From: Sphingomonas beigongshangi
GTDB lineage: Bacteria > Pseudomonadota > Alphaproteobacteria > Sphingomonadales > Sphingomonadaceae
Reading direction: 5' to 3'
NCBI RefSeq assembly: GCF_016820445.1
Contig: NZ_JADHDT010000001.1
Location: 558,001 to 622,000, forward strand
Length of the DNA: 64,000 nucleotides
Below are positions 4,460-27,478 of the stretch, piece after piece. The notes beneath the pieces were generated by a model, which worked only from the letters and a program-made list of their open reading frames with translations, made no database searches and was not told where the DNA came from. The translations under genes and the position numbers were made by a program. The first letter of the stretch is position 1. Each line of letters begins with the position of its first letter.

Positions 4460-5953
4460 CTAGCGCCGCATCGCGCAGTGGCGCGCGATGAAGGACTCGT
4501 GCGTCGCAAGGGCGCCGGCCTCGCGACGGTAGAGCAGCGGCAGCGTCTCCATATATTCCGCAAGATCGGCGTCGGGGATCGTATCGGCGAACGGATGGTG
4601 CGACCGCGCCGTCACGCCCTGCCCTGCCAGCACCTGCAGCCAGCCGTCCTCGGTGAACAGTTCCTCGTGCTCGCGCGTGATGACGCCCGTCTCGCGCCAC
4701 AGATCGATCTTCGCCTGCAGGCTGTCCGGCAGCGCCATCGTCCGGCAGGCCTGCCAGAAGGGTTCTTCGCGACCGTTCGCCCAATAATGCAGGATCAGGA
4801 AATCGCGGATACGCTCCATCTCGAAATCGGTCTGTCGGTTGTATTCGCTGCGCAGCGCGGCCGCGACGGGCATGGCCGGCAACAGCTTCACGAGCCGCGC
4901 GATCGCCGCCTGGATGAGGTGGATGCTGGTCGACTCAAGCGGTTCGAGAAAGCCGCTGGCAAGGCCGAGTGCAACGACATTGTGGCTCCACGCCTTGCGC
5001 CGACGTCCGGTAACGAAGCGCAGCGGCCGGGGGTCGCCGGTCGGCTCGCCGTCCAGGTTTCCGGCAAGCACCGCCATGGCCTCGTCGTCGCTGGTGAAGG
5101 CGCTGCAATAGACGTGTCCGTTACCGGTTCGATGCTGGAGGGGGATGCGCCACTGCCACCCCGCCGACTTTGCGATCGCCCGCGTATAGGGCATGGGCGC
5201 GCCCGTTCCCGTGCTCGGCTGTGCAACCGCACGGTCGCAGGGCAGCCAGCGCGACCAGTCTTCATAGCCGGCCTGCAAGGCACCTTCGATCAGCAGCGCG
5301 CGAAAGCCCGTGCAATCGAGGAACAGGTCCCCCGCCACGCGCTCGCCGCCGTCGAGCACCAGGGCGGTGACGTCGCCACTTTCTCCATCGCGCTCGACCG
5401 CGGCGATCCGCCCCTCGGTCCGTGACACGCCGCGGTTCTGCGCGAACCGCCGAAGATAGGCGGCGTAGAGGTTCGCGTCGAAGTGGAAGGCATAGGGAAT
5501 CGCCGGGATCGTCCGCGCGGTGAGGGGCGCGCCGCGATGCATGCGGCCGGCACGCGCCGCGACTTCGTTCATGCAATAGTCGCCGAGCGGGCCCGCGACT
5601 CCCTCGGCCTGCGCGCGCAACCAGTAATGCTGGAACGGCACGGGTCCGACGTCTCGGCCAACATCGCCAAAGGCGTGCATGTAACTGTGCCTCGGCGCCG
5701 TCCAGCCGTCGAAGGCGATCCCGAGCTTGAAGGTGCCGCCCGTCGCTCGGAGGAACGCGTCCTCGTCCAGGCCCAGCGCCTGGTTGAAGAGGCGGATCTG
5801 CGGGATTGTCGCCTCACCGACGCCGACGGTGCCGATCGCCTCCGACTCCACCAGGTGGATGCGGATGTGCTCGCCCATCAGATGGCCGAGCGCGGCGGCC
5901 GCCATCCAGCCCGCGGTGCCGCCGCCTGCGATGACGATGGTCTTCAGGGTCAT
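4460..5953 (-). CDS. Flavin-dependent tryptophan-halogenase family protein A
   Basis: A 497-residue member of the FAD-dependent tryptophan halogenase family (Trp_halogenase, PrnA-like). Seen directly: the N-terminal dinucleotide motif GGGTAGW (residues 10-16), a lysine at K76 in TFKLGIAF matching the catalytic Lys of PrnA, the WQWRIPLQHR block and the EPLESTSIHLIQ block that carries the conserved Glu. No signal peptide, so cytoplasmic with reduced FAD. I chose ATG 5953 because AGAGG lies 9 nt upstream; the in-frame ATG at 5962 abuts that sequence. It lies downstream of a TBDR gene but is separated from it by a strong terminator. No biosynthetic cluster is nearby, so halogenation of tryptophan is doubtful and the true substrate is unknown. 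Confidence 0.88.
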   Translation of the reverse strand: MTLKTIVIAGGGTAGWMAAAALGHLMGEHIRIHLVESEAIGTVGVGEATIPQIRLFNQALGLDEDAFLRATGGTFKLGIAFDGWTAPRHSYMHAFGDVGRDVGPVPFQHYWLRAQAEGVAGPLGDYCMNEVAARAGRMHRGAPLTARTIPAIPYAFHFDANLYAAYLRRFAQNRGVSRTEGRIAAVERDGESGDVTALVLDGGERVAGDLFLDCTGFRALLIEGALQAGYEDWSRWLPCDRAVAQPSTGTGAPMPYTRAIAKSAGWQWRIPLQHRTGNGHVYCSAFTSDDEAMAVLAGNLDGEPTGDPRPLRFVTGRRRKAWSHNVVALGLASGFLEPLESTSIHLIQAAIARLVKLLPAMPVAAALRSEYNRQTDFEMERIRDFLILHYWANGREEPFWQACRTMALPDSLQAKIDLWRETGVITREHEELFTEDGWLQVLAGQGVTARSHHPFADTIPDADLAEYMETLPLLYRREAGALATHESFIARHCAMRR

Positions 5954-6083
5954 GAATGGCATCCTCTGCTGTGCCGATCTTCGGGCTGGACCGGTCCCGG
6001 CCCCCACCGTGCCATGTACCTACCGTCCGTACATCTTGCGGAACGGTGCCCGCAGAACAAGCCCGGGGCTGGCGTGAATTGGA

Positions 6084-6122
6084 AACAAAAAGGGCTGCCG
6101 CCGGATCGCGGCGACAGCCCTT
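6084..6122 (-). terminator. Intrinsic terminator after TBDR A
   Basis: Arms AAGGGCTG (6090-6097) and CAGCCCTT (6115-6122) with inner CGCCG/CGGCG pairing form a long GC stem. On the minus strand it is followed by TTTTTGT. It sits 20 bp past the TBDR stop and separates that gene from the halogenase start at 5953. Confidence 0.85.
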
Positions 6123-6141
6123 GAGGCGGGGAGGAAGAGGA

Positions 6142-9060
6142 TCAGAACTTGTAGCTGATGCCGATATAGTAATCGCGGCCGTAGCGCTGATAATCGATGA
6201 CCTGCCGCGGATCGTTGTTCTGGTAGGTGACGAACGGACGGTCGGTCAGGTTCTTGCCCTGCGCGAGGATCGAGAAGCCCTTCAGGAAGCCGCTCTGGAA
6301 CTCGTAGCCGATCTGGGCATCGAGGATCGCCTCGTCCTTCGCCGTCCGGTACGTCGGGCTCGCCGAAAGGCCGGCGACCTCTGCCAGGAACGACGACCGG
6401 TAGCGGTAGTTCGCCCGCGCCTGGAAGCCCCACTTCTCGAAATAGAGCGTGCCGCTAGCCGTGACGTCCGACAGGCCCGGCAGGGTGATCGGGGTCGGGT
6501 TGTTGGCATATTTGATGGTGGAGTCGGTGTAGCCGCCGGTCACGAAGATGCCGAACCCGTCAAGCGCGCTGGTGATCGACTTGAACGGCAGCGAGATCGT
6601 GCCCTCGACACCCAGGATCTCGCCGCGACCCGTGTTCGCGGGCGCCGAGACGGTGCCGATCGTCTGATTCGCCGCAATGACCTGCGCCTGCTGGGCCGAC
6701 GTCAGCGCCGGCAACAGGCCCGAGAAGTCGTAGGCATAGCTGTTGTTCGGATCGACGAAGTCGGTCAGGTGCTTGAAGTAGGTTGCGACCGCGACGTAGC
6801 CGCCGCCCGAAAAGTACTTTTCGAACGAAAGATCGATGTTGGTCGACTGGTAGGGACGCAGCGCGACGTTGCCGCCGCTGGACGAGAAGACCGGGAACAG
6901 CAGGCCGGGCTGCGTGCGTCCGATGTTGGCGATGTTGATCGACACGTCCTGCGTCACGCGCTCCTGGTCGAGACGCGGCCGGATCATCGTCTGCGACGCA
7001 CCCATCTTCACATAGCCGCTCGGTATCAGCTCGACCGAGAAGGTCGCGCTCGGCAGGAAGTTGGTGTACGTTTCCTTCTGGTTCGCCGGGGCGATCGTCA
7101 CGACGCCGTTGTTAACGCTGGCGATCTGTCCGGTGCCACGCTGCTGGCTGCGTACGACCTGTGCGCCCAGCGCGCCCTTGACGGCCTTGCCGCCGACCTC
7201 GCCGTCGAGATTGATCTGCGCATAGCCAGTCCACACGTCCTCGGTGACGACATTGTCGCGGACCAGCGAGGACGGACGACCGTCGAACGCCTTGTTGAGC
7301 GCGTTGTTATAAACGTAGAGCGGGTCCCACGTCAGCATCGCGGGGATGCCGAGATAGGCGAGCGGCACGTTGGTGCCGAGCAGCGCCGCGGTCGGCACCG
7401 GCGCACTGGTCGGCGTGCCGCTGGCCACGGTGCAGCCCGTGCCGCCGCCGGTCGGGCACAGGAAATAGGACGAATAGGCGCTGGTCTTCTCGCGACGGCT
7501 GTAGTTGCCGCCGACTTCCCAGCTCTTCACCACGCTGCCGTCGATCTCGCCGTTGAAGCTCGCACGCAGCGACTTCAGATCGTCCTTGAAGCTCGGCCGG
7601 TTGAGGAAGCCCGACTGAACCACGGGCTGCGTGCCGTTGTAGCCCCAACCCTGCGGGTCGGTGAGCTTGAAGATGTTGGTGTTGGTATAGTCGAGCGTCG
7701 GCACGATGCGATACGTGCCGTTGGCATTCTGCGTCACGGTGACGCGATCGGGAACCCCGCTCTTCTGATAGCCGGTGCCGGCGTTGGTCTCGAGCAGGAA
7801 GTCCGTGCGGGTCGCGCGGCTCCAGCTCGCATCGACGTTGAAGTGGATCCGGTCGGTGACCTTCAGGTCGTTGTTCCAGCCGAGCGACAGGTTCTCCGCG
7901 TCGCGACGATTATAGTCGTTGCGCATGACGGCGAACACGTTGCTGAAGGTGGTCGCGGTCGCAAACCCGTTCGAGGTCTGGATGCCGCTCTTGACCGGAT
8001 CGGAGAAGCCCAGCGGGAATTCGACGCCGCGCAGGTGCTGCTCTTCCTTGAACTTCGAGTAGAGCGCATCGAACGTCGAATGGAAATTCTCCGACGGCTG
8101 CCATTCGATCGTCGCGACGCCACCGTAGCGGCGCAGCTCGTTCGACTGGACATAGGGCTTGGCGCCGCCGAGCACATAAGGATCGGCCGCGGTGCCGCTG
8201 CCCGAATAGCCCCAGGCGTTGTAGCGCTCGTCCTGCGACGGCGTCTGGGTCGCCGAGACGCCGAGCGCGATGCCGAGCGTGTCGTTGGCGAACTTGTCGA
8301 CATAGGTCGCCGACGCACGATAGCCGTAGCGCGACGAGTCCGGGTTGAGGTTGTCGATGCCGTTCATCTGGCCACGGGCATTGATCGCGAACACGCGGCC
8401 GGGCTGGTCCAGCGGACGCAGCATGCGCAGGTCGACGGTGCCCGAGATGCCCGCGGCGATCAGCGACGCATTGGCGGACTTGTAGACGTTGACGTTGCGG
8501 AAGAATTCCGACGGATACTGGTCGTATTCGACGCCGCGGTTGTCACCGACGGTCACCTGCTCGCGACCGTTCAGCAGCGTGGTCGAGAAGTCGGGGCCGA
8601 GGCCGCGGATCGACAGGCGCTGGTCGCGCCCTTCCAGGCGCTGCGCGGTGACGCCGGGAAGACGCGCCAGGCTGTCGGCGATCGACACGTCGGGCAGCTT
8701 GCCGACGTCCTCGGCCGAGACGCTGTCGACGATCAGCGCGGAGTCGCGCTTGATCTTGGCGGAGCTGGCGAGGCTGGCGCGGATGCCGGTGACGACGATG
8801 TCCTGGCCACCTTCGTCCTGCACGGCGTTCGACTGGGTCTGCGCCTGCTCGGCATTCTGGTTCGGGGTCGGTTCCGCGGCGGGAGCCGGCGCCTGGACCG
8901 TCGCGGCCGCCGGCGGGTTGGCGTTGGGCGACTGCGGGTTCGGGGTTTCCTGCGCAAACGCAGCGCCGCCCGTTACCAGGAACAGGCTGCCGAGGCCGAC
9001 GGTGGTGGAGCGGAGTGCGCAGCGGCTGCGCAGCGAAAACGACGAAACGGAACGGGCCAC
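6142..9060 (-). CDS. TonB-dependent receptor A (probable maltodextrin uptake)
   Basis: A 972-residue outer-membrane receptor. It has a signal peptide (residues 1-36, ending GGAAFAQ), a Pro/Ala/Gln-rich spacer, a TonB box-like DIVVTGIRAS near residue 88, a plug domain (GKLPDVSIADSLARLPGV, RLSIRGLGPDFSTTLLNG) and a beta-barrel ending in the C-terminal aromatic YKF. The layout matches the Xanthomonas/Caulobacter TBDR family for glycans (TIGR01782-like). The start is GTG at 9060 with GGGGGAGGA 8 nt upstream. An ATACGTAT site lies 120 bp upstream, identical to the site at the GH13 operon, so it probably imports maltodextrins under the same LacI regulator. A strong terminator follows. Receptor class is certain; ligand is inference from context. 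Confidence 0.93.
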   Translation of the reverse strand: MARSVSSFSLRSRCALRSTTVGLGSLFLVTGGAAFAQETPNPQSPNANPPAAATVQAPAPAAEPTPNQNAEQAQTQSNAVQDEGGQDIVVTGIRASLASSAKIKRDSALIVDSVSAEDVGKLPDVSIADSLARLPGVTAQRLEGRDQRLSIRGLGPDFSTTLLNGREQVTVGDNRGVEYDQYPSEFFRNVNVYKSANASLIAAGISGTVDLRMLRPLDQPGRVFAINARGQMNGIDNLNPDSSRYGYRASATYVDKFANDTLGIALGVSATQTPSQDERYNAWGYSGSGTAADPYVLGGAKPYVQSNELRRYGGVATIEWQPSENFHSTFDALYSKFKEEQHLRGVEFPLGFSDPVKSGIQTSNGFATATTFSNVFAVMRNDYNRRDAENLSLGWNNDLKVTDRIHFNVDASWSRATRTDFLLETNAGTGYQKSGVPDRVTVTQNANGTYRIVPTLDYTNTNIFKLTDPQGWGYNGTQPVVQSGFLNRPSFKDDLKSLRASFNGEIDGSVVKSWEVGGNYSRREKTSAYSSYFLCPTGGGTGCTVASGTPTSAPVPTAALLGTNVPLAYLGIPAMLTWDPLYVYNNALNKAFDGRPSSLVRDNVVTEDVWTGYAQINLDGEVGGKAVKGALGAQVVRSQQRGTGQIASVNNGVVTIAPANQKETYTNFLPSATFSVELIPSGYVKMGASQTMIRPRLDQERVTQDVSINIANIGRTQPGLLFPVFSSSGGNVALRPYQSTNIDLSFEKYFSGGGYVAVATYFKHLTDFVDPNNSYAYDFSGLLPALTSAQQAQVIAANQTIGTVSAPANTGRGEILGVEGTISLPFKSITSALDGFGIFVTGGYTDSTIKYANNPTPITLPGLSDVTASGTLYFEKWGFQARANYRYRSSFLAEVAGLSASPTYRTAKDEAILDAQIGYEFQSGFLKGFSILAQGKNLTDRPFVTYQNNDPRQVIDYQRYGRDYYIGISYKF

Positions 9061-9178
9061 GAGAAGAATCCTCCCCCTTGAAGTGATACCGTGCCCTCGC
9101 CCCCTGGCATGGGAGGACGATCGGCCGGTCTAACCCGAGCGCTTGTGAACAAAGGGGGATTTCGTGCCAACATGGCCA

Positions 9179-9190
9179 CATACGTATTCA
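9179..9190. promoter_or_regulatory. Putative LacI-family operator before TBDR A
   Basis: CATACGTATTCA, identical over 12 bases to 3279-3290, with the palindrome ATACGTAT at 9180-9187. It lies 119 bp upstream of the GTG start of the minus-strand TBDR. It probably links that gene to the regulator at 3334-4377. Confidence 0.6.
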
Positions 9191-9229
9191 TGCGCCACGG
9201 GGGGCGCGTGATATTCCGGCAACATACCG

Positions 9230-9907
9230 TTACGAAATGGTTCGTCCGTCGAGGAAGGTATTCACCGTCAGCCGACCCTCCAACGCGTCGTCGGACAGCG
9301 CCATGTCGGGCGGGATGACCGCGCAATGCAGCGTATTGGACCGATAGAGAATCGCACGATTGAATCGGCCTTCGTGGCGCGCGACCTGCTCGAACAGCGG
9401 CGTATCGCCCGCGATGTACGCCGGATCGGGCAGCCCATGCTGCGCCAGATCGGCCTGCAGCGCGGCGCGATAGCCGGCGAGCCGCGCCGCATCGACGGAC
9501 TCGAAGCCCGTGCTGCGCTGGCGGTAGAAGGCGGTACCGCTGCGTTGGTCCGGCGACAGATAGTGGAGCAGCGCCAGCCGTGTCGGCGACACCTCGTCGA
9601 AATGCGGCAAGCGCTGGATCGGCGCGAGGCGTGCGGGCGGCGTGGTGACCAGCGAGTAGAAGGCGTCCACCACGTCCAGGTCGTGCAGCCCAAATACGTC
9701 CGCAGCGACGGGCGCGACGGTGGCCAGCATCGGGCGCAGCATCGCCGCGGCGACATGCGCGCGGACGCCGGGATAATGTTCGCCGATCGACGCGAACGAC
9801 AGGAAACCGGCGTCGTCGCGCAGCGCCTCCGCATCGGCGAAATCGTCGAACACGACGACCGGCTGGGCTTCCGCGCCGTGGCGAGTGACGGTGATCCTGG
9901 GCGTCAT
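9230..9907 (-). CDS. DUF6445 family protein A (possible 2OG/Fe(II) oxygenase)
   Basis: A 225-residue protein recognised as DUF6445-like, with no signal peptide. It resembles the protein at 11771-12451: shared blocks are PHFD, LHYLS, GTAFYRQRSTG, RAILYRSNTLH and RLTVNTFL. H102-x-D104, H194 and R212 are arranged like the HxD...H...R set of prolyl-4-hydroxylase-type 2-oxoglutarate/Fe(II) oxygenases, which is inference and not an established assignment. It follows the GH43-like gene after 70 bp on the same strand. The ATACGTAT operator lies between it and TBDR A, so it more likely ends the beta-glucan operon than starts the alpha-glucan one. Its biochemical function is unknown. Confidence 0.8.
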   Translation of the reverse strand: MTPRITVTRHGAEAQPVVVFDDFADAEALRDDAGFLSFASIGEHYPGVRAHVAAAMLRPMLATVAPVAADVFGLHDLDVVDAFYSLVTTPPARLAPIQRLPHFDEVSPTRLALLHYLSPDQRSGTAFYRQRSTGFESVDAARLAGYRAALQADLAQHGLPDPAYIAGDTPLFEQVARHEGRFNRAILYRSNTLHCAVIPPDMALSDDALEGRLTVNTFLDGRTIS

Positions 9908-9977
9908 GGCGGCGGGTTAGCAGGGGTCGGTCGAGTCTTTAAGCCCCCCTTCTCCAGCGGCGTAACCGGCCGACGCA

Positions 9978-11774
9978 TCACATCGCCTGAACCCTGCTCA
10001 ACCGCGACACGCCGTTCTCGTCGAACGCCTCGACCGCGACATAATAACGCTGCCCGACCGTGAGGGCCCGCAGCGGCAGCGTCGCGGCGTCGCCGGTCGC
10101 GACGCGGTCCGCAAAGACCTGGTACGTCAGGGCCAGCCGGTCCGGCCGGATGCCCCAGCGGACGTTGTAGCCGACCGCCCCGGGTACGCGCCGCCATCGG
10201 ATCGTCGCGTCGCGCGTATCGGCGGCGCGCGTCGCGCCGACCAGCTCGGGCGCGGACGGTGCGCCGCCGCCCGCGGTGCCGAACACCCTGAGGTCGCTGA
10301 TCGCGAGATTGGCGCCGCCGATATGGCCGTGGACGTAGCGCACGTAGCGCGCCGTGACGGGTGCGGGCAGTTCGAAATAGGCGTTCGGCCGATCGCGACG
10401 CGGCCCCGTCGTGCGGGCGAGCGGTCGCCAATCGCGTCCGTCGCGCGACGATTCGAGGCGGAATTCCGTATAGATGTCCGGCGCATCGCCGAAGCGGCCC
10501 GCCTTGTAATCGGCGAAGTTGACCTGCACCGCGCGCACGGTCTTCGCGGCGCCCAGGTCGATCGTCAGCGTCGTCCCGGCCGCCTTGGACGGCGACAGCC
10601 AGAAGCTCCGGGGGTTCTCGTCGGTCGCGTCTGCCGGCGCATGGCCGGTGACGCTTGCGCTGGCGGTCGCGGCCTTGCGGTAGGACAGCAACATCCAGCC
10701 CGTGAACAGCGAGTCGGGATCGGCGAAGCGCGTCGTCGGCATGCGCTGCGGGAAATCGCCAAAGCGCGTGGAGACGCGCATCTGCCCATCGGCATCGAAC
10801 ATGGTCGGCCACAGGCCGATCCGCCGCTCGAACGTCCAGTTGTAGCCGATCCATGGCGTTCCGGTGTTCCACCAGTTGCCGTGGAGATCCTGGAACGTGT
10901 TGCCATGGCCTGCGCCCTGGACGAAGCCGCCGGGCTTGTAGCCGACCGGATTGTACGCGGCGTAGGTGAACGGCCCCATCGGCGACGTCCCGACATAGGT
11001 ACCGGTCGCATAGGCGTTATATTCGGTGCCGGGCGCGCCATATTGCAGATAGTAGCGCCCGCCGACCTTCGTCATCCAGGCGCCTTCCATGAACGGCGTG
11101 ATCGGCGTGCCATCGGGCAGGGTGCCGCTATGGTCCTGGCCGAAGCGTTCCCAGCCGTGCCGCGTCGGGTCGAGCAGGATGAACGATTTGCGCGGACTGC
11201 CATAGGTCATCCGACCATCGGCGAACGACACCGGCGCGCCGTAGATCGGAAAGACGTTCGAAGAATTCCAGTACAGGTACCAGCGCTTGTCGTCGTCCTG
11301 GAACAGGTCGGGGTCCCATGGACCGGGCGGAACCTGCCCCGGCCTGATCGTATCCTCCAGACCCGACTTCACCGCGCCGGGCAGCGGCGGCATGCGGCGG
11401 ACGACATAGTCGATCCGGCCGCTCTCGGGATCCGACGTGCCGTATATCGTGCCCTGCGCCGTCATCGACGGCATGATGAGCAGCCGCGTTCCGTCGGAGG
11501 TGACGGCGGGGGCGACGATCCCTTCCGCCGGCCAGCGGCTGGGCGTGACGAAGCGCCAGGTCACGAGGTCGGTGGAGCGCCAATAACCGTCCGCCAGCGT
11601 CAGGAAGAGGTAATAGGCGCCCTTGAACGGCACGATCACCGGATCGGCCCCCGTCCGGTAGGAAATGCCTTCGTTCACCTGCTCGAAATTGTAGCGGTAA
11701 TCGATGTCGACGGGATTGGCGTAGGTGTGCTGCGCGGCCGGCGCGGCGGTGGCGAGAAGGAGGGCTGCGATCAT
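9978..11774 (-). CDS. Exported GH43-like glycosidase with F5/8 C (discoidin) domain
   Basis: A 598-residue protein with a short signal peptide (MIAALLLATAAPAAQ) that places it in the periplasm or beyond. Residues about 35-390 look like a five-bladed beta-propeller glycosidase: GADPVIVPFKGAYYLFLT gives the candidate catalytic base Asp, PWDPDLFQDDDKRWYLYW a supporting Asp, and PFMEGAWMTKVGGRYYLQY the candidate acid Glu. About 395-500 is a discoidin-type carbohydrate-binding domain (DLGAAKTVRAVQV, ARYVRYVHGHIGG) and about 505-598 an FN3-like domain. ATG 11774 overlaps the stop of the DUF6445 gene by ATGA, so the two are co-translated. The exact CAZy family and substrate are not certain; it could act on side chains or on the main glycan of this locus. 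Confidence 0.78.
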   Translation of the reverse strand: MIAALLLATAAPAAQHTYANPVDIDYRYNFEQVNEGISYRTGADPVIVPFKGAYYLFLTLADGYWRSTDLVTWRFVTPSRWPAEGIVAPAVTSDGTRLLIMPSMTAQGTIYGTSDPESGRIDYVVRRMPPLPGAVKSGLEDTIRPGQVPPGPWDPDLFQDDDKRWYLYWNSSNVFPIYGAPVSFADGRMTYGSPRKSFILLDPTRHGWERFGQDHSGTLPDGTPITPFMEGAWMTKVGGRYYLQYGAPGTEYNAYATGTYVGTSPMGPFTYAAYNPVGYKPGGFVQGAGHGNTFQDLHGNWWNTGTPWIGYNWTFERRIGLWPTMFDADGQMRVSTRFGDFPQRMPTTRFADPDSLFTGWMLLSYRKAATASASVTGHAPADATDENPRSFWLSPSKAAGTTLTIDLGAAKTVRAVQVNFADYKAGRFGDAPDIYTEFRLESSRDGRDWRPLARTTGPRRDRPNAYFELPAPVTARYVRYVHGHIGGANLAISDLRVFGTAGGGAPSAPELVGATRAADTRDATIRWRRVPGAVGYNVRWGIRPDRLALTYQVFADRVATGDAATLPLRALTVGQRYYVAVEAFDENGVSRLSRVQAM

Positions 11775-12451
11775 CGATGCGCCTGGATGAAGAGGTTGGC
11801 GGTCAGCCGCCCGACGCGCGGATCGGCGCTCAGCGGCATGGCGGCGGGGATGATGCCCGAATGAAGCAGGCTCCCCTGGTAGAGAACGACGCGATTGCGC
11901 CGCCCCTCCACCGCCCCGATCCGTTCGAACGCGGCGTTGCTGGCGTTGGTGTAGCCGCTCAGGGCCGTGCTGTCGCGGCGCGCGGCGGCGACGAACGTCT
12001 CGCGGTTGGCGGCGTCGACGCACTCGATGCCGGTCGATCGCTGGCGGTAGAAGGCGGTGCCGGTCCCGGGCGTGTCCGACAGATAGTGGAGCACCGCGAG
12101 ATAGCCGGGATCGGTCGAGTCGAAGTGCGGCGCGCGCTGCGCGGGCGACAGCGTGGCCGGATCGGCGGTCACGATCGAGAAGCTGCCCTCGATCCAGTCG
12201 AAGCCATCGACGTCGAACGCGCCGCCGATGAACGGCGCGAGGGATCGCAACAGGGCGGTCGCATAGTCGTGCGCGGCGCCGTCGGCGGCGGTCAGGACGC
12301 GGCGGACGCCGGGATAAAAGCTGCTCGCGACGCTGGGGAACGGCGCCAGCGCGGCGGCCAGATCGACGACGGCGTCCACGTCGGGAACGGCATCGTCCAC
12401 GACGACCACCGGGCTCTCGCTTCGGCCGACACGGATGAGGCTGGGGGTCAT
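11771..12451 (-). CDS. DUF6445 family protein B (possible 2OG/Fe(II) oxygenase)
   Basis: A 226-residue paralogue of the protein at 9230-9907. The same blocks are present: APHFDSTDPG, LHYLSDTPGTGTAFYRQRSTG, RVVLYQGSLLHSG and RLTANLFIQ. Candidate iron ligands are H109, D111 and H197, with R215 as the possible 2-oxoglutarate arginine. The start ATG 12451 begins MTPSLIRVG, like the MTPRITVT start of paralogue A. It lies downstream of TBDR B, separated by a REP-like hairpin element, and is coupled to the GH43-like gene. No signal peptide. Real function unknown; the oxygenase idea rests only on the motif spacing and on the link to flavin halogenase genes. Confidence 0.8.
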   Translation of the reverse strand: MTPSLIRVGRSESPVVVVDDAVPDVDAVVDLAAALAPFPSVASSFYPGVRRVLTAADGAAHDYATALLRSLAPFIGGAFDVDGFDWIEGSFSIVTADPATLSPAQRAPHFDSTDPGYLAVLHYLSDTPGTGTAFYRQRSTGIECVDAANRETFVAAARRDSTALSGYTNASNAAFERIGAVEGRRNRVVLYQGSLLHSGIIPAAMPLSADPRVGRLTANLFIQAHR

Positions 12452-12474
12452 GCTACCGCCCCTCCCATTCCAGT

Positions 12475-12554
12475 GTTCCCGCGAACGCGGGAACCCAGAG
12501 CCACACAGGACATCGCCTGCCGTCCTGGGCTCCTGCGTCCGCAGGAGCACGGAA
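12475..12554. repeat. REP-like palindromic element, copy 1
   Basis: An imperfect double-hairpin element: GTTCCCGCGAACGCGGGAAC is itself a palindrome, followed by CCCAGAGCC and, about 25 bases on, CCTGGGCTCCTGCGTCCGCAGGAGCACGG. A close copy occurs at 52121-52199. This copy lies between TBDR B and the DUF6445 gene inside an apparent operon, where it may dampen transcription or protect mRNA ends. Confidence 0.75.
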
Positions 12555-12560
12555 AACGCA

Positions 12561-15500
12561 TCAGAACTTGTAGCGCGCGCCGACCTGGAACGAGCGCGGC
12601 ACGCCCTGCGTGTCGTTCTCGCGCTTGGTCGGGTTGACCCCCGATCCGGCGCCCCAGGCCGAATAGGTGCGATTGACCGAGTCGAAGAGGTTGAACGCCG
12701 CGAAGTTGACCTCGAGGTCGTGGCCCCAGGGCATGGTGAACGTCTTCGAGATGCGCGCATCGACCGAGGCATAGCCGACGATCTGGTCAGGCCAGAACAC
12801 GCCGCCGAAATTGCCGTAGGCACTGGCGTTCTCGGGCTTGACGGTCGGGAAGATGACCTGGCCGAACGACGGGCCCGAGCTGAACGTGCCGGTGACCGAC
12901 AGCTTCGTGTCCCATGGGCCGCGGGCGATGCCGGTGCCGACGAAGCGCCACTTCTCGACGCCCGCGACATAATTGATGCCATAGGCATCGACGCGCGGAC
13001 CGTTGTAGAATTCGTCGCCCTGCAGTTCCTGCGCGACGTTCGACCGGGCACGCTGCAACGTCAGCGTCGAGGTGAAGCCCCAGGTCGAACCCGTGACGAA
13101 CGGCTTTTCCGCGGTGAAGTAGATCGCGGTGTAATAGGCCTTGCCGTCATTCGACCCGATGTTCAGCTTGCCGCTATAGCCGGGCAGGATGCCCTGCGCG
13201 GGGAAGGTATCCTCGATCCACTGGTCGCCCTGGCTGGTGTACTGGCCGCTGGGCAGACGATTGCCGCGCACATATTTGAAGATGTTGTGGCTGCGGATGT
13301 GGCTGAAGGTGATCGAGGTCTGGACCGCGCCCAGGCGCTTGCGGACGCCGAAGTTGAACTGGTCCGAATAGGGCAGCTTGGTGTCGTTGTTGAGCAGCCA
13401 TACCTCGCCGCCCACGCCGGTTGCGGTCGCCGCGGCACGAAGGGCATCGACGTTCTTGTAATTGGCATTCCACGCCAGCGTCGTCGCCGGCAGGGCACCG
13501 TTGTTGCCGGCGCGCACCGAGGCGCAGCTCGGCTGGCCCGGGCCGTCGCAGAAGCTGAGCGTGATGGTCCGCTGGTAGAGCGCCTTGATCGTCTCGATGC
13601 CCGAGTCGATGAACAGCGGGCGGTCGTAATAGCGACCGGCACCCGCGAAGAGCACGATGTCGCGATCGCCATTGACGTCGTACGACAGGCCCAGACGCGG
13701 CTGGAACGCCTTCCAATACGGCTTACGATTGGTGCCGGTCGAGATATAGTCGTTCGGGTTGATCCCCGCCGCCTGCCACGGCTGGTAGTTGCGCAGCGCG
13801 GTGACGATGCCGGCGGGCGTGACGAACTTCTCGTTCTTCGCGTTGGTCTCGTAATCCCAGCGGATGCCGGCGTTGATCGTCAGGTGATCGTTGACGGTCC
13901 AGTCGTCCTGGATGAACAGGCCGATCTGCGTATCCTTGGCCATCGCCGGACGCACTGGGACGACGGAAACCGCCGCCTGCTGCGGCGTCGAGGCGTCGAA
14001 GGTCGTGAACGTCGAAGGCTGGAAAAAGTAGGACCCGTTGCCGAGATTGTCCTCGGCACGCGACAGATCATTCAGCGTGACCTTGACGCCCGCCTTCACG
14101 ACATGCGCCGCGCCGTAGAAGGTGACATTGTCCTTGAAGGTCCATGTCTTCTGATTGTCGGCCTGCTCGAAGCCGTTGGTTCCCAGCGACGCGACCACGG
14201 CGCCCGGCTTGCCCAGCACGATCTCCGGCCCGCTGCTGGTGCGCGGTGTGCCGTTGAAGACGGTGTTGTACGCGACCGTCGCCTCGTTCAGCCAATTGTC
14301 GCCGCGGTGGTTCCATTCGAGCTGGTACAGGTCGATCTTCGACTGCAGCAGATGGCCGTGCGACGGAACCGACGTACCGCCGAAGTCGGCGAGATTGCTC
14401 TCGCGACGGAAGAAACCGCTGAAGTTCACCGTATCGGCATTGCTGACGAAGGCGGTCAGCTTGCCGAAATACAGCTTCTGGTGGAAATCCTGCGGATAGC
14501 TGCCGTTATACTGCTGCACGATCGCCTGCGGCACGATCTGCGTCGGGTCGGCGGAGGTGCCGTTGCCGAGCAGGACCGCGGCCGAAGGCGCCTTCTGGTC
14601 GGTCGCCTCGAACGCGCCGTAGAAATGCAGCACGTTCTTGATGATCGGACCGCCCAGGTCGCCGCCATATTGCTTGCGGTCGTAATTGCCCTGCGTGCGC
14701 GAGCCATCGAGATTGTTGGCGTTGCCGGGACGATCGAAATATTTGGTGCCGTAGAACGAGCTGGGCTGCCATTCGCCGAACAGGTCGCCGTGGAAGGACG
14801 TGCCGCCCGACTTGGTCACCGCGGTGATGATCGCGGAGCCGGCCTGCTCGTATTCCGCCTTGTAGTTCTGCGTATCGACCTTGAATTCCTGCACCGCGAG
14901 CTGCGGGAAGGGATTGCCCTGGCTGAAGTTCTGGCCCGCGACGCCGCCGTGGTTGACCTGGTTCTTGAGGCTTAGGCCGTCGACGAAGACGTTGATGTTG
15001 TCGGCGCTGATGCCGCCCGCCTGCACCTGACGGTTGCCGCGACCCGGCGTCACCGCGACGCCCGGCGCGAGCGCGGCGAAATTCAGGAAGTTGCGGTCGC
15101 TCTGCGGCAGGCTCTCGATCTGCTGCTGCGACACGTTGGTTGCGACTTCGGCGGTGCGCACCTCCTGCGTGCGGCGGCCGGTGACGATGATGTCGCTACC
15201 CGACCCCGTGCCGGCATCGGCGGAGGTGGTCGTCTCGGTCGTCGCGGCTTCCGCATTGGCGGCCGGCGTGCCGATGTCGAGCGTGATCGTCTGGCCGACG
15301 GGAACGACGACCTGCTCCGGCCGCTGGCCAGCCACGTCGACGCGATAGGTGCTCGGGCGGATGCCGGGAATGGTATAGTCGCCCGCCGCATTGGTGCGGC
15401 TGTTGATCACCTGGCCCGTGGTCAGATCGGTGATGACGACGGCCGTCCCCGCGGCCGCGCCCTCGATATGGCCGCGCAGCGTCGAGGTCGCCTGGGCGAA

Positions 15501-15587
15501 TGCCGGCGCGCCGATGACGAGTGCCGCGGCGAGCGCCGCCGCCGAAATGCCGCGACGGACGGACGCGCGCTGAATCTTGGAAGCCAT
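12561..15587 (-). CDS. TonB-dependent receptor B, Oar-like with carboxypeptidase-regulatory-like domain
   Basis: A 1008-residue outer-membrane receptor. After a signal peptide (cleavage near GAPAFAQA) comes a CarboxypepD_reg-like Ig domain (about residues 28-95: STLRGHIEGAAAGTAVVITDL, GDYTIPGIRPSTYRVDV), a TonB box-like DIIVTGRRTQE, a plug (NFLNFAALAPGVAVTPGRGN) and a barrel ending FQVGARYKF. This is the Oar/SusC-related architecture used for large substrates. Start: ATG 15587 has AGGGG 6 nt upstream; the ATG at 15593 touches the Shine-Dalgarno sequence. Two GTAACCGGTTAC-type operators lie 87-117 bp upstream, so it is probably controlled by the LacI regulator at 18782-19789 and imports the oligosaccharide made by the GH144-like enzyme. 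Ligand is inference. Confidence 0.92.
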   Translation of the reverse strand: MASKIQRASVRRGISAAALAAALVIGAPAFAQATSTLRGHIEGAAAGTAVVITDLTTGQVINSRTNAAGDYTIPGIRPSTYRVDVAGQRPEQVVVPVGQTITLDIGTPAANAEAATTETTTSADAGTGSGSDIIVTGRRTQEVRTAEVATNVSQQQIESLPQSDRNFLNFAALAPGVAVTPGRGNRQVQAGGISADNINVFVDGLSLKNQVNHGGVAGQNFSQGNPFPQLAVQEFKVDTQNYKAEYEQAGSAIITAVTKSGGTSFHGDLFGEWQPSSFYGTKYFDRPGNANNLDGSRTQGNYDRKQYGGDLGGPIIKNVLHFYGAFEATDQKAPSAAVLLGNGTSADPTQIVPQAIVQQYNGSYPQDFHQKLYFGKLTAFVSNADTVNFSGFFRRESNLADFGGTSVPSHGHLLQSKIDLYQLEWNHRGDNWLNEATVAYNTVFNGTPRTSSGPEIVLGKPGAVVASLGTNGFEQADNQKTWTFKDNVTFYGAAHVVKAGVKVTLNDLSRAEDNLGNGSYFFQPSTFTTFDASTPQQAAVSVVPVRPAMAKDTQIGLFIQDDWTVNDHLTINAGIRWDYETNAKNEKFVTPAGIVTALRNYQPWQAAGINPNDYISTGTNRKPYWKAFQPRLGLSYDVNGDRDIVLFAGAGRYYDRPLFIDSGIETIKALYQRTITLSFCDGPGQPSCASVRAGNNGALPATTLAWNANYKNVDALRAAATATGVGGEVWLLNNDTKLPYSDQFNFGVRKRLGAVQTSITFSHIRSHNIFKYVRGNRLPSGQYTSQGDQWIEDTFPAQGILPGYSGKLNIGSNDGKAYYTAIYFTAEKPFVTGSTWGFTSTLTLQRARSNVAQELQGDEFYNGPRVDAYGINYVAGVEKWRFVGTGIARGPWDTKLSVTGTFSSGPSFGQVIFPTVKPENASAYGNFGGVFWPDQIVGYASVDARISKTFTMPWGHDLEVNFAAFNLFDSVNRTYSAWGAGSGVNPTKRENDTQGVPRSFQVGARYKF

Positions 15588-15673
15588 TTTCATCCCCTCT
15601 CGGTCGACCAGCCCCCTTTTTGCTCCCGGAAGACCGACGACAGGCATCGGCCGCGGATCGCGGAGGGCGTATG

Positions 15674-15704
15674 GAACCGGTTACTCCCCCGCGTAACCGG
15701 TTAC
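15674..15704. promoter_or_regulatory. Tandem LacI-type operators upstream of TBDR B
   Basis: Two sites with centres 20 bp apart, two helical turns: GAACCGGTTAC at 15674-15684 and the perfect palindrome GTAACCGGTTAC at 15693-15704. The same perfect site occurs at 19866-19877 between the LacI and GH3 genes. A central CpG is typical of LacI operators. Confidence 0.7.
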
Positions 15705-15778
15705 AACAATCTAGCTATAGCCCCGCTCAATATCGTCCCGGCTGTTGCCGAACTGTCACAGTTTGTTGATGATTCCCG

Positions 15779-17311
15779 TCAGGCGGAAGGCGGAGGCGCA
15801 AGGCAGTGCCGGGCGATGAACGCCTCGTGCGTCGGCAGTCCCTGCGCGACGTCGGCGATCACCTCCTCGACATCCTGGAGGAACGCCCGCGCCTGATCGT
15901 CGGGGATCATGTCCACCATCGGGTCATAGGCGGCCTGGAGCCCCTGACCCAGCAGCACCTGCACCCAGCTTTCCTCGCGGAACAGTTCCGCCTTGCCGTG
16001 CATGAAGAACCGGGCAGAGGCGCGGAACAGGTCGAGCCGCTCCGCCAGGCTATCTGGCACATCCATATGCTTCAGATAGCGCCAGAATTCGGAGTCCTCG
16101 CGATCGGTAACCTTGTAATGGGCGATGATGAAGTCGCGGACGTCGCGATATTCGAAGTCGGTCTGGCGATTGTATTCGTCGATATCGGCGGCATTGAAGC
16201 CTTGCCCCGGGAACAGCGCGACCAGGCGCAGGATACCGGTCTGGATCAGGTGGATGCTGGTCGATTCGAGCGGTTCGAGGAAGCCGCCGGCGAGACCGAG
16301 GGCGACGACGTTCTTTTCCCAGGCGCGCAGGCGCTTGCCGGGACGGAAGCGGACCGGGCGCGGATCGGCCAGCGCGGGCGTATCCAGATGCGCGAGCAGC
16401 GTCTGCGCCGCCGCCTCGTCCGACACGAAGCGGCTGGCATAGACATGGCCGTTGCCGGTGCGATGCTGGAGGGGGATGCGCCACTGCCACCCTGCGTCAT
16501 GCGCGGTCGAGCGGGTATAGGGCGTCAGCGGCCCCGTTCCGCGCGCACTCGGCACGGCCAGCGCGCGGTCGCACAGCAGCCACCGGTCCCAATCCTCGTA
16601 CCCGACGCCCATCGCGCCGCCGATCAACAGGCCGCGCATACCCGAACAGTCGATGAACAGGTCGCCGTCGACCGTGCGGCCGTCGGCGAGCACGACATGG
16701 TCCAGGAAGCCGTCCTGCCCGCGCCGGTTGGCAGCGACGATCCGCCCCTCGATCCGGAGGACACCCGCCTGTTCCGCGCGGGATCGCAGGAAGCGGGCGA
16801 ACAACGACGCATCGAAGTGATAGGCATAGTCGAGGTCGGCCACCGGCGAATACGGATTCGACGGATCGGGCATGGCGAAGCGATTCATCCGCGCCGCCAG
16901 CGTGTTGAGGGCATAATGGTCGAGGTGCTTGGCGCGTCCCGCCGCCTGTTCCTTGAGCCAGAACTGGTGGCAGTGCAGCCAGTAGAGGTCCTGGCCGATC
17001 TTGCCAAAGCCATGGATGTAGCTGTGGCCGGGGGCGCGCCAGTTACGGAATTCGATGCCGAGCTTGAACGTCGCCTGCGTCGCGCGGACCATCTCGAACT
17101 CGTCGATGCCCGCAAGGCCGTTGTAGGTGCGGATCGCAGGGATCGTCGCCTCGCCGACGCCGATCGTGCCGATCTCCTCCGACTCGATCAGCCGTATCTG
17201 ATAGGCGCCGAGGAACAGGCGCGAGAGCAGCGCCGCCGTCATCCAGCCTGCCGTGCCACCGCCGACGATGGTGATGGTCTTGATCGGCGGATTGGGGTGG
17301 GAGGCGGTCAT
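15779..17311 (-). CDS. Flavin-dependent tryptophan-halogenase family protein B
   Basis: A 510-residue paralogue of halogenase A. It has GGGTAGW at residues 17-23, the catalytic-type lysine K83 in TFKLGIEF, WQWRIPLQHRTGNGHVY and EPLESTSIHLIQ with the conserved Glu. ATG 17311 is chosen because GGAG lies 9 nt upstream and the FAD motif then starts at the usual place. It sits between the GH144-like gene and TBDR B on one strand; the TBDR operators lie just past its stop, so the TBDR may also be transcribed alone. With a DUF6445 gene and a TBDR beside it, it repeats the pattern of the alpha-glucan locus. Substrate unknown; a role linked to the receptor or its glycan is speculation. Confidence 0.88.
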   Translation of the reverse strand: MTASHPNPPIKTITIVGGGTAGWMTAALLSRLFLGAYQIRLIESEEIGTIGVGEATIPAIRTYNGLAGIDEFEMVRATQATFKLGIEFRNWRAPGHSYIHGFGKIGQDLYWLHCHQFWLKEQAAGRAKHLDHYALNTLAARMNRFAMPDPSNPYSPVADLDYAYHFDASLFARFLRSRAEQAGVLRIEGRIVAANRRGQDGFLDHVVLADGRTVDGDLFIDCSGMRGLLIGGAMGVGYEDWDRWLLCDRALAVPSARGTGPLTPYTRSTAHDAGWQWRIPLQHRTGNGHVYASRFVSDEAAAQTLLAHLDTPALADPRPVRFRPGKRLRAWEKNVVALGLAGGFLEPLESTSIHLIQTGILRLVALFPGQGFNAADIDEYNRQTDFEYRDVRDFIIAHYKVTDREDSEFWRYLKHMDVPDSLAERLDLFRASARFFMHGKAELFREESWVQVLLGQGLQAAYDPMVDMIPDDQARAFLQDVEEVIADVAQGLPTHEAFIARHCLAPPPSA

Positions 17312-17357
17312 GCCGGGACGCTCCAATCGCCCACCACGTCGCGCCGGAAGGTCATCG

Positions 17358-18785
17358 TCATCCCAGCCACCCGCCGGTGAACCCCGCGCGCTGCAGCCCG
17401 CGCCGGATCGTCGGCGACCGACGCATGACCCGCCACACCCCCTCGTCGCGCGCATTGGCGATAGCACCCGTGATCGCGCCCTGGTCGATGCCGAGGTAAT
17501 CGCGCGCCACCCAGCCGGCAGCCGGGTCGACCGAGCCCGTTTCCAGCTTGGCGGACGCGTAGCGGAACGAGGGGTTGAAGCTGTCGAGGAATCCGTATTT
17601 GCCGTACAGCCCCGGCCAGCGACGCAGCGCATCGCCTGCCGGCACCGCGATCTCCGGCGCGAAGGCGAGGCTGCCGAGCGCGGCGGTCGGGGCCAGCGTG
17701 CCATCGTCGCGCCCGTCGGGCTGGCCGAGCGGCCCGCGCGCCGAATAGCCGTAGAAGGTGGCGCTGCCGCCCCGGTACGGCAGCTCGAAATTGCCCGGTC
17801 CGTCGCAAGCGGTCAGGCCCCAGATTTCGCCGGAATAGCCGCGCCAGCCCATCGGGTTGGCGATGCAATAGGCGCGATTGGCATAGGTCGCGCGGCGGCT
17901 GTTCTCGAAATAGTCGAGGCCCGCCTGCCGCATCGTGGCATCGCGGATGCCGCGGAAGTCGATCCACATCTGGCTGTACTGGTGCCCGAACAGCGGCGCG
18001 AAGGCGAGGTGCCGCGTCGCGCCCTGCCCACGCCAGAATTCCGGATAGGTCTTCGCCCAGGCATTCCATGCCCCGTCATGGAGCGATCTGCCGCGACTGC
18101 CGAGGCCGACGATATAGACCATCATCCCCTCGTTATACCCTTCCCACGACCGCTCGATGAAGCCCTGGCCCGGATGCCAGCCCATCGACACGCTGCCACG
18201 CGCGTTGGTGAACCATGGCCAGTCGGCGCGATCGGTGATGCGCTGCGCCAGCGTACGGATCTCCGTCTCCGCCGGATCGGCACGGTCGTACCAGGCCCCC
18301 GCGAATAGGATGCCCAGAAAGAGCAGGGTCGTGTCGACGCTGGAAAGCTCGGTATCGCGAAAGCGCTTGCCGGTTTCCATGTCGAGGAAATGGTAGAAGA
18401 ACCCCTTGTGGCCGCTCATCCCGGCCGGCGCGTCGCCCTGCGGCGCGGTATCGAAGAAGCGTAGCGTCGTCAGCGTCAGGTCGCGCGCTTCCTCGCGCCG
18501 TATCCAGCCGCGCGCGACGCCGATCGGATAGGCGGTCAGGGCGAAACCGACCGCGGCGATGCTGGCGAAGGACGGCGTCGGCCAGCGATCGGGGACCAGG
18601 CCGTTCTTGCGGTTGGCGAGATCCCAGAAATAGCGGAACGTGCGATGCTCCAGATCGTCGAACCATCCGGGCAGCGCGGGTCGGCCCGCCGCCAGCGTGG
18701 GCAGCGACTGGCTCGCCGCGACGGCGGCCAGGGGCGTCCGCGCCAACAGGGTCCGACGATCAAGCGGCTTAGAGATAAAGGTCAT
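17358..18785 (-). CDS. PF10091 glucoamylase-like / GH144-type beta-1,2-glucanase
   Basis: A 475-residue exported protein with a twin-arginine-like leader (DRRTLLARTPLAAVAA) and the alpha/alpha-barrel PF10091 fold: WFDDLEHRTFRYFWDLAN at about 41, GFFYHFLDMETG at about 130, ELSSVDTTLLFLGILFAG, WEGYNEGMMVYIVGLGS and GLTACDGP. Families with this domain include GH144 endo-beta-1,2-glucanases, which cut beta-1,2-glucan to sophoro-oligosaccharides; other glucosidase activities are possible. Its ATG overlaps the stop of the LacI gene (ATGA), so regulator and enzyme form one operon. The nearby GH3 beta-glucosidase, GPH permease and Oar-like TBDR fit a complete beta-glucan pathway. The domain is confident, the beta-1,2 linkage is inference. 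Confidence 0.82.
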   Translation of the reverse strand: MTFISKPLDRRTLLARTPLAAVAASQSLPTLAAGRPALPGWFDDLEHRTFRYFWDLANRKNGLVPDRWPTPSFASIAAVGFALTAYPIGVARGWIRREEARDLTLTTLRFFDTAPQGDAPAGMSGHKGFFYHFLDMETGKRFRDTELSSVDTTLLFLGILFAGAWYDRADPAETEIRTLAQRITDRADWPWFTNARGSVSMGWHPGQGFIERSWEGYNEGMMVYIVGLGSRGRSLHDGAWNAWAKTYPEFWRGQGATRHLAFAPLFGHQYSQMWIDFRGIRDATMRQAGLDYFENSRRATYANRAYCIANPMGWRGYSGEIWGLTACDGPGNFELPYRGGSATFYGYSARGPLGQPDGRDDGTLAPTAALGSLAFAPEIAVPAGDALRRWPGLYGKYGFLDSFNPSFRYASAKLETGSVDPAAGWVARDYLGIDQGAITGAIANARDEGVWRVMRRSPTIRRGLQRAGFTGGWLG

Positions 18786-19789: not shown

Positions 19790-19864
19790 GACTCGCCCCC
19801 TCCTCAAATGTTCGCCCGGGCGCTATACCCGACCCATCGCATCTTGTGCGAGCCTCCCAGCCTG

Positions 19865-19878: not shown

Positions 19879-19963
19879 GGAAAGCGTCAACGCGAAAAGC
19901 TGAATGGCCGCCGCGGCGGGAAAGTTCGAGCGTTCGGCGCATGTGAGGGGAGTTTCGCAAGGC

Positions 19964-23693: not shown

Positions 23694-23855
23694 GCCGCCG
23701 TCCTTCGACGGTCGCTCGCCGAAAGTCGAGGGAGAAGGCGGCCTATGCCGGGGCATGGTTTGACAGCGCGTGACGGCCGGCTACCCCATGCCGAATTCGA
23801 TCGAAGGAAAGCCCGTGCACGCAGACCGGCCCCGCCGCTTCGCCAGGAACGACCG

Positions 23856-24401: not shown

Positions 24402-24565
24402 CTCACGCCCCGTCTGCCGGCCCGACGGGAAACGACAGCCGCATTGCACTGAAGCCGAAGCATTAAATTTATTTGTTATACGAACGTAACGTAATCGCCT
24501 CAATTCGGACCTAGCGGGCGTCGCCAGCGGCAGAGACCGCATCGCTTGCTTCCTTGGGGGACATC

Positions 24566-27388: not shown

Positions 27389-27478
27389 CGCAGGCGTAAT
27401 AAGGTATAGGGGCGGACGGGGTGCGCCAGCGCCCTGTCCGCCTTGCCGTTTTTCCTGCTTTCCGGAGCCCTGTCGACG

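Follow-up and report, generated by a model that had tools for sequence, protein, structure and literature searches.

The carbohydrate-utilization (CUT) loci of Xanthomonas and the mal locus of Caulobacter, as described in the main text of the study that reports them, combine a TBDR with a regulator, a transporter, and sugar enzymes, maltose loci included (PMC1790865). The term “halogen” is absent from that main text. Halogenases of the BrvH type are known from a separate line of work. In the BrvH report, the enzyme brominates the C3 position of free indole in vitro and leaves tryptophan unbrominated; its authors doubted that indole is the natural substrate and could name none, and a second halogenase gene adjoins brvH (PMC5945002).

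Here, we find that sugar-import genes in Sphingomonas-type bacteria repeatedly adjoin a flavin halogenase and a putative new family of iron oxygenases. The locus that we describe lies in a 64,000-nucleotide stretch of DNA from Sphingomonas beigongshangi (hereafter, the window). By its gene content, it is a TonB-dependent carbohydrate-utilization (CUT-type) locus of starch type with predicted oxidative accessory enzymes (Table 1). It shares with the Xanthomonas and Caulobacter loci a TBDR, a regulator, a transporter, and sugar enzymes. An earlier note on this DNA had placed two halogenases, two TBDRs, and two DUF6445 paralogs between glycosidases and LacI regulators. Profile matches confirm all of these genes at their places and identify the surroundings as GH13, GH43, GH3, and two LacI genes; one TBDR is a TIGR01782 receptor, and a symporter falls just below its cut-off. 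The note had also remarked that no natural-product cluster is visible, and the window proteins that we scanned with profiles likewise include no natural-product gene. In TBDR2, a PF13620 match falls below its cut-off. The stop codon of DUF6445-2 overlaps the GH43 start (ATGA). A single operon spanning positions 4460 to 18785 was considered and set aside because TBDR1 and halogenase 1 have a terminator-like hairpin between them. This hairpin has the longest stem of the five terminator-like sites between positions 3000 and 20000, a class that is not commoner than chance (5 observed; shuffled mean 7.9).

Table 1. Features of the CUT-type locus, with positions counted from the first nucleotide of the window.
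Feature	Position	Strand	Basis
Alpha-amylase (GH13)	1324..3174	-	PF00128, 204 bits
LacI-type regulator	3334..4377	+	PF00356 + PF13377
Halogenase 1, BrvH-type flavin-dependent halogenase, 497 aa	4460..5953	-	PF04820, 620 bits
Intrinsic-terminator-like hairpin between TBDR1 and halogenase 1	6090..6122	-	14-bp stem, then T-run
TBDR1, TIGR01782 (TonB-Xanth-Caul) receptor	6142..9060	-	525.7 bits (cut-off 310); Plug domain
DUF6445-1, predicted Fe(II)/2-oxoglutarate oxygenase, 225 aa	9230..9907	-	PF20043, 234.7 bits
GH43 glycosidase with F5/8-type C domain	9978..11774	-	PF04616 + PF00754
DUF6445-2, predicted Fe(II)/2-oxoglutarate oxygenase, 226 aa	11771..12451	-	PF20043, 210 bits
TBDR2, carboxypeptidase-regulatory-like N-terminus and PF25183 (OMP_b-brl_4) barrel	12561..15647	-	PF25183, PF00593, PF07715
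Halogenase 2, flavin-dependent halogenase, 510 aa	15779..17311	-	PF04820, 612 bits
PF10091 (“putative glucoamylase”) protein	17358..18785	-	230 bits
LacI-type regulator	18782..19807	-	PF00356 + PF13377
GH3	19904..22240	+	Profile match
GPH-type symporter	22359..23756		220.3 bits, slightly below model cut-off 231.35

Both halogenases are intact and carry the catalytic motifs of the BrvH group: GGGTAG, K76 in FKLGI, EPLESTSI, and WQWRIP at 266 in halogenase 1; GGGTAG, K83, EPLESTSI, and WQWRIP at 275 in halogenase 2. The solved chains closest to halogenase 1 are 6y1w, 9luq, and 6frl, with near full-length alignment of halogenase 1 residues 3-469 to 6frl (449.7 bits) and 3-494 to 6y1w (531.2 bits), which we take to be BrvH and Xanthomonas Xcc4156, respectively. 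Halogenase 1 shares with these two the GxGxxG, catalytic lysine, EP(L/I)EST, and WxWxIP elements, and no decisive sequence difference sets it apart. It also aligns with PrnA (2apg) over the N-terminal FAD domain, catalytic lysine, and glutamate, but the local alignment ends at PrnA residue 428 of 538; the part beyond is presumably the C-terminal tryptophan-binding region. This single-sequence search, in which a remote match could be missed, thus gave no sign that halogenase 1 belongs with the free-tryptophan (PrnA-type) enzymes. The catalytic residues are widely conserved (lysine in 201 and glutamate in 203 of 210 halogenases, after prior removal of matches spanning fewer than about 380 residues).

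Pfam labels DUF6445 (PF20043) as being of “unknown function.” Structure models give good support for placing DUF6445 among the Fe(II)/2-oxoglutarate (2OG) oxygenases, as a hitherto unassigned branch with a predicted fold like that of prolyl hydroxylases. The candidate ligands proposed in the earlier note, H102, D104, H194, and R212 in DUF6445-1 and H109, D111, H197, and R215 in DUF6445-2, are exactly where it put them. The H-x-D...H...R pattern is invariant across the family (98/98 proteins), and the HxD...H triad is kept in every DUF6445 sequence of sets A1 (15/15) and A2 (42/42). The C-terminal arginine (R212/R215), itself invariant in all 98, immediately precedes the last core strand or opens it, and would hold the 2OG carboxylate. 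In the models (pLDDT 95.4 for DUF6445-1 and 94.6 for DUF6445-2), HxD falls shortly before one strand and the second histidine opens another, so that the predicted placement of the four residues relative to strands matches that in 2OG oxygenases.

The best VIA match of both models is OGFOD1 (Z 13.3 for DUF6445-1 and 14.9 for DUF6445-2), and alignments of the top matches span 172-179 residues of the predicted structures. Nearly all of the best 50 matches listed for each paralog are known Fe(II)/2OG oxygenases; the remaining chains (3dkq, 2rg4, and Tpa1) have the same fold and no stated activity. OGFOD1 (4nhx), PHD2, the Pseudomonas putida P4H (4j25), and mimivirus L230 resemble the predicted DUF6445 fold at Z 12-15. 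Such prolyl and lysyl hydroxylases have in common with DUF6445 the HxD...H triad and a C-terminal basic residue, and 150-179 residues align structurally at only 10-16% identity. Small-molecule oxygenases (HygX, SnoN, and AsqJ) reach Z scores tied or nearly tied with those of the protein hydroxylases, and HygX is the first Foldseek match of DUF6445-1. At the sequence level, no link to the hydroxylases emerged: PF20043 is the only Pfam match at E ≤ 0.01, with no known 2OG family among the matches; NCBIfam gave no match at 1e-10, and PDB sequences none that was convincing. A search of nonsubscription literature returned no paper on DUF6445. Seven stretches holding distant relatives (about 200 aa, 45-60 bits) had nothing in common, as judged from the sequence starts. 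The oxygenase proposal of the earlier note thus gains from the invariant residues and from the comparison with prolyl-4-hydroxylases that it had suggested, which both paralogs resemble in predicted fold, and finds no backing in profiles of known 2OG families.

We show that this neighborhood is beyond chance and that a tie between PF04820 halogenases and TBDR genes across the order is well supported. A TBDR is nearby in 58 of 60 halogenase loci. These loci were picked, regardless of receptors, from the best-scoring matches listed, with some short contigs and the loci fetched for DUF6445 omitted; the absence of DUF6445 from them is therefore by construction. Among the 40 PF04820 genes of five genomes, 30 have a TIGR01782 receptor within 5 kb, compared with roughly 2.7% at random (two fragmentary PF04820 rows and all sub-cut-off TIGR01782 rows were left out). 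Conversely, halogenases are present in 65 of 80 named DUF6445 loci, the best 80 of 485 relatives and thus favoring close kin, and in 13 of 15 sampled ones. The halogenase-TBDR link may well already be in print, for example in subscription papers.

The association also extends to gene order and to whole genomes. DUF6445, TBDR, and halogenase genes follow one another in the same direction in 42 of 96 DUF6445 stretches, not counting LacI genes and genes without a profile. A strong halogenase, meaning a match better than 1e-50, is present in 55 of 99 genomes, and these include all 13 that have a strong DUF6445 gene (hypergeometric P = 2.3e-4, kinship of genomes ignored); at 0.001, the halogenase count is 71 of 99. 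Among 81 loci, only five families are present in more than 14: halogenase, DUF6445, TBDR, LacI, and GH13-like, the last defined as the BLAST cluster containing the window’s two amylase/glucosidase genes.

A second type of cassette suggests that the oxygenase slot is exchangeable. The TBDR-SapC-Cupin_8-halogenase cassette (C23, L132), copies of which sit in the same genome outside this locus, resembles the window in uniting a TBDR and a halogenase with a metal-site 2OG-type protein. The window differs in having DUF6445 in place of Cupin_8 and in lacking SapC; a profile search found neither SapC nor Cupin_8 in its first 30 kb. Of 24 SapC cases elsewhere, 16 have a JmjC-like Cupin_8 as the neighbor and 3 have DUF6445, with comparable gaps between domain matches (51-76 nt and 76-114 nt, respectively). 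Because either protein can occupy the same place beside SapC, DUF6445 and Cupin_8 probably do equivalent jobs. The Cupin_8 proteins keep HxD and a histidine (32/32). Comparison by hhalign found no sequence similarity between Cupin_8 and DUF6445, and a common origin of SapC, Cupin_8, and DUF6445 was rejected on the same grounds.

The earlier note had named the receptor as one possible target, an idea to which a column test, which could miss such a role, lent no support. We aligned 142 TIGR01782-like receptors (one duplicate gene dropped), 123 with a halogenase within 3 kb and 19 without. No tryptophan column reaches 80% among the 123 linked receptors, their conserved tyrosine and proline columns are mostly common to the 19 unlinked ones, and no halogenase-specific aromatic column was found in the 142. 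Three nonaromatic columns differ (R at position 189, D433, and E208, numbered in the stop-to-stop TBDR1 frame). These might be clade markers, since the unlinked receptors fall in few clades (5 tree label changes; 18.1 when shuffled). Tryptophan density is 1.12% versus 0.94%, with wide overlap, and six tryptophans of TBDR1 are conserved at 86-100% within the 42-locus group, which is no proof by itself. Furthermore, of 33 receptors above the TIGR01782 cut-off, 16 have no halogenase within 6 kb; such receptors therefore do not require one nearby.

The reading that we favor, at about even odds, is that TBDR loci carry interchangeable 2OG oxygenases and the flavin halogenase as accessory tailoring enzymes whose target is the receptor or a molecule linked to it. 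Both the halogenase and DUF6445 would be cytoplasmic, as no signal peptide is seen by eye. The oxygenase (using 2OG, O2, and Fe(II)) and the halogenase (using FADH2, O2, and halide) would work on a substrate connected with the receptor. The leading candidate for that substrate is the receptor chain ahead of its export; next comes a small aromatic molecule or peptide that is produced or imported during receptor use. Expression would probably follow glycan supply via the neighboring LacI regulators. A narrower form of this reading is rather unlikely: the halogenase and an exchangeable hydroxylase (DUF6445 or Cupin_8), perhaps with SapC serving as adaptor, would modify side chains of the unfolded receptor, or of a peptide tied to it, in the cytoplasm ahead of export.

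The enzymes might instead produce or break down a small aromatic compound that can diffuse, such as an indole derivative, and that guards the released sugars against competitors or signals to neighbors, the receptor being merely coregulated. We consider this somewhat unlikely. In its favor, the relative BrvH brominates the C3 position of free indole in vitro (PMC5945002), and HygX tops the Foldseek matches of DUF6445-1, with SnoN and AsqJ also high in the VIA ranking. The five recurrent families include no biosynthesis, export, or immunity gene, an argument that is weak because only recurrent families were annotated. It is less probable again that the enzymes have separate jobs and are neighbors only through glycan-regulated loci, with some general cellular protein or metabolite as the possible target of DUF6445. 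DUF6445 loci without a halogenase in the stretch (15/80 named and 2/15 sampled) count against the tailoring reading. The named ones come from 15 genomes, five of which lack any strong halogenase. Separate jobs would fit this last count and the orphan DUF6445 genes, which occupy unrelated places, some far from any halogenase; in addition, the 99 genomes contain 17 strong DUF6445 genes versus more than 100 halogenases listed. Against this stand the codirectional gene order, the DUF6445/Cupin_8 swap beside SapC, and the tracking of halogenase lineage by partner type (31 label changes; shuffled mean 91.6, minimum 81), a difference that locus choice inflates.

The earlier note had also raised the aromatic groups of plant glycans as a target. 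Arabinose-containing plant glycans can bear ferulate, and the GH43 gene adjoining DUF6445-2 would suit them. However, the glycosidases recognized among annotated genes of the commonest DUF6445-TBDR-halogenase locus are GH13-like, of alpha-glucan type, which makes action on such decorations unlikely; starch and maltodextrins have no aromatic groups. With no signal peptide visible in either protein, the enzymes would not meet the polymer outside the cell. We therefore regard aromatic or phenolic decorations of an imported glycan as a very improbable target.

The preferred reading, tailoring of the receptor or a molecule linked to it, bears on a standing question about these halogenases. BrvH is active yet has no named natural substrate, and most halogenase genes counted here adjoin a TBDR. 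If the receptor is modified during maturation, the product would be a halogenated or hydroxylated outer-membrane transporter, and this modification would be the native job of BrvH-type halogenases. DUF6445, as a predicted 2OG oxygenase that swaps with Cupin_8, would turn from an odd neighbor into part of a defined, deletable module. Mass spectrometry of a single receptor and of its culture could then put the question of the halogenase target to the test.

Profile annotation recovered all the halogenases (PF04820), TonB-dependent receptors (TBDRs), and DUF6445 (PF20043) proteins that the earlier note had read from the window, which lies in contig C10 of its genome. In reading order, they form a minus-strand series: PF10091 protein, halogenase 2, TBDR2, DUF6445-2, GH43, DUF6445-1, TBDR1, and halogenase 1. 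The series is bordered by genes for LacI regulators, GH13, GH3, and a GPH-type symporter. The GH43 start lies within the DUF6445-2 stop (ATGA), which suggests translational coupling of the two. A 14-bp terminator-like hairpin separates TBDR1 from halogenase 1, which may thus be transcribed on its own. The gene order of Sphingomonas sp. MA1305 (stretch L050) is identical from the PF10091 protein through the GH13 genes, and no LacI gene was found in that stretch.

Pfam assigns DUF6445 no function, and no paper naming the family was found in the literature searched. Structural models indicate that it is very probably a 2OG oxygenase. AlphaFold2 modelled both window proteins with high confidence (pLDDT 95.4 and 94.6), and Foldseek (first model) and VIA-align (both models) place them among 2OG oxygenases, bearing out the fold proposed previously. 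The four residues singled out at that time (H, D, H, and R) are present without exception in three sequence sets (15/15, 42/42, and 98/98). Structural matches comprise OGFOD1, PHD2, P. putida P4H, and a viral lysyl hydroxylase, along with HygX, SnoN, and AsqJ, all differing by only about one to two Z units. Since protein hydroxylases and the latter three score near-equally, the fold points to an oxygenase without a choice between protein and small-molecule targets. The window's genome has three DUF6445 genes, the third of which (contig C20, stretch L133) also adjoins a halogenase. Tandem triplets of a distant relative occur in several genomes of a single genus, g16.

Halogenases 1 and 2 both carry the FAD motif, catalytic Lys, catalytic Glu, and WxWxIP; their genome has nine PF04820 genes. 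Halogenase 1 aligns near full-length with 6y1w, 9luq, and 6frl (BrvH), whereas its PrnA alignment stops at residue 428, which makes free tryptophan an unlikely substrate. This agrees with BrvH, which accepts indole and not tryptophan (PMC5945002). Across 210 halogenase-family genes, the catalytic Lys is lost (R, S, or A) in nine, which have also lost the Ser (9/9) and mostly the Glu (7/9). Their reading frames are open and each stretch has two to four halogenase genes; beyond those tabulated, L165, L169, L181, L184, L187, and L205 hold one each. These nine are predicted to be conserved pseudo-halogenases.

Co-occurrence across sphingomonads, which the earlier note proposed counting, is marked. 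Strong DUF6445 matches (E below 1e-50) occur in 13/99 genomes of the order, all 13 with strong halogenases, which are present in 55/99 (overlap, P = 2.3e-4). A further 20 of the 99 genomes have weak DUF6445 matches only, and a class-wide sample had DUF6445 at 1e-20 in 2/190 genomes. In stretches reaching up to 10 kb either side of DUF6445, a halogenase is found at 65/80 named and 13/15 sampled loci, and a TBDR (by the profiles used) at 64/80 and 11/15. Conversely, 60 halogenase loci include a TBDR in 58, Cupin_8 (a JmjC-like protein) in 24, and SapC in 18. In five genomes, the nearest TIGR01782 receptor is no more than 5 kb away for 30/40 halogenases, where random placement would give about 2.7%; 17/33 such receptors have a halogenase within 5 kb. 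A co-directional DUF6445>TBDR>halogenase series recurs in 42/96 stretches, commonly near LacI and GH13-like genes, a setting typical of loci for starch or maltodextrin.

The same-strand gene directly beside SapC is Cupin_8 in 16/24 cases and DUF6445 in 3/24 (L136, L138, and L147, from three families: genomes G063, G031, and G085); neither lies within 2.5 kb in 5/24. Spacing from SapC, between domain hits, is 51 to 76 nt for Cupin_8 and 76 to 114 nt for DUF6445, and Cupin_8 keeps its own HxD...H in 32/32. This sharing of one slot by two unrelated oxygenase-type proteins gives the strongest evidence that the module requires the oxidation chemistry of DUF6445. Elsewhere, the DUF6445 and Cupin_8 genes are adjacent, in opposite directions, in L098, L102, L105, L109, L111, and L135.

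We consider a functional link between oxygenase and halogenase reasonably probable. A tight pair is argued against by the 15/80 named loci without a halogenase in the stretch analyzed (two of these stretches are < 8 kb), 14 of the 80 also lacking a receptor by the profiles used. Strong halogenases occur elsewhere in ten of these 15 genomes and are absent from five; several are draft metagenome assemblies. The two sampled orphans, L139 and L144, come from genomes in which PF04820 has seven and six matches, respectively. Orphan neighbors, judged from sequence starts, seem unrelated, and include 2'-5' RNA ligase-like and rod-shape-like genes. Thus, DUF6445 can exist alone. The contigs of L103, L108, L113, L124, and L125, where DUF6445 adjoins the ligase-like gene, are alike, yet carry the labels Hyphomonas, Hyphomonadaceae, Acidobacteria, and Sulfopaludibacter, a sign of probable bin contamination.

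As the common partner, the receptor, a target proposed earlier, is the first substrate candidate, although modification of its chain seems rather improbable. Across 123 halogenase-linked receptors, Trp reaches 80% conservation in no alignment column, but a target may lie in a variable loop. The main rival is a diffusible indole-like compound, as substrate or product. Aromatic groups of plant glycans, also suggested previously, are argued against by the alpha-glucan setting. In the TBDR1 stop-to-stop frame, position 189 is Arg in the plug (DQRLSIRG) and position 433 Asp in the barrel. Their conservation is 97% and 89% (weighted) among halogenase-linked receptors, against 22% among those without linkage, which may reflect either clade membership or a difference in function.

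Coordinates of additional features in the window and in other stretches (L)
Stretch	Positions	Feature	Remark
Window	24554-27388	TIGR01782 receptor	407.7 bits; no halogenase within 7 kb
Window	27443-28690	Histidine-phosphatase-family gene	Follows this receptor
L130	9335-11029	Lys-less halogenase gene	
L135	14589-16202	Lys-less halogenase gene	
L149	8044-9564	Lys-less halogenase gene	
L225	6118-8065	Triplet of distant DUF6445 relative	Copies of about 200 aa
L139	10221-12107	thiC-like gene (sequence start only)	Adjoins DUF6445
L231	4670-6613	thiC-like gene (sequence start only)	Adjoins distant DUF6445 relative
L100	15552-17438	thiC-like gene (sequence start only)	About 5 kb from DUF6445

The recurrent arrangement joins a TBDR, a BrvH-type halogenase, and an exchangeable 2OG oxygenase, and SapC may be present or absent; no description of it was found in the literature searched. 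Our finding extends this arrangement. What is new here is a predicted 2OG-oxygenase function for DUF6445, within a known type of TonB-dependent carbohydrate-utilisation (CUT) locus.
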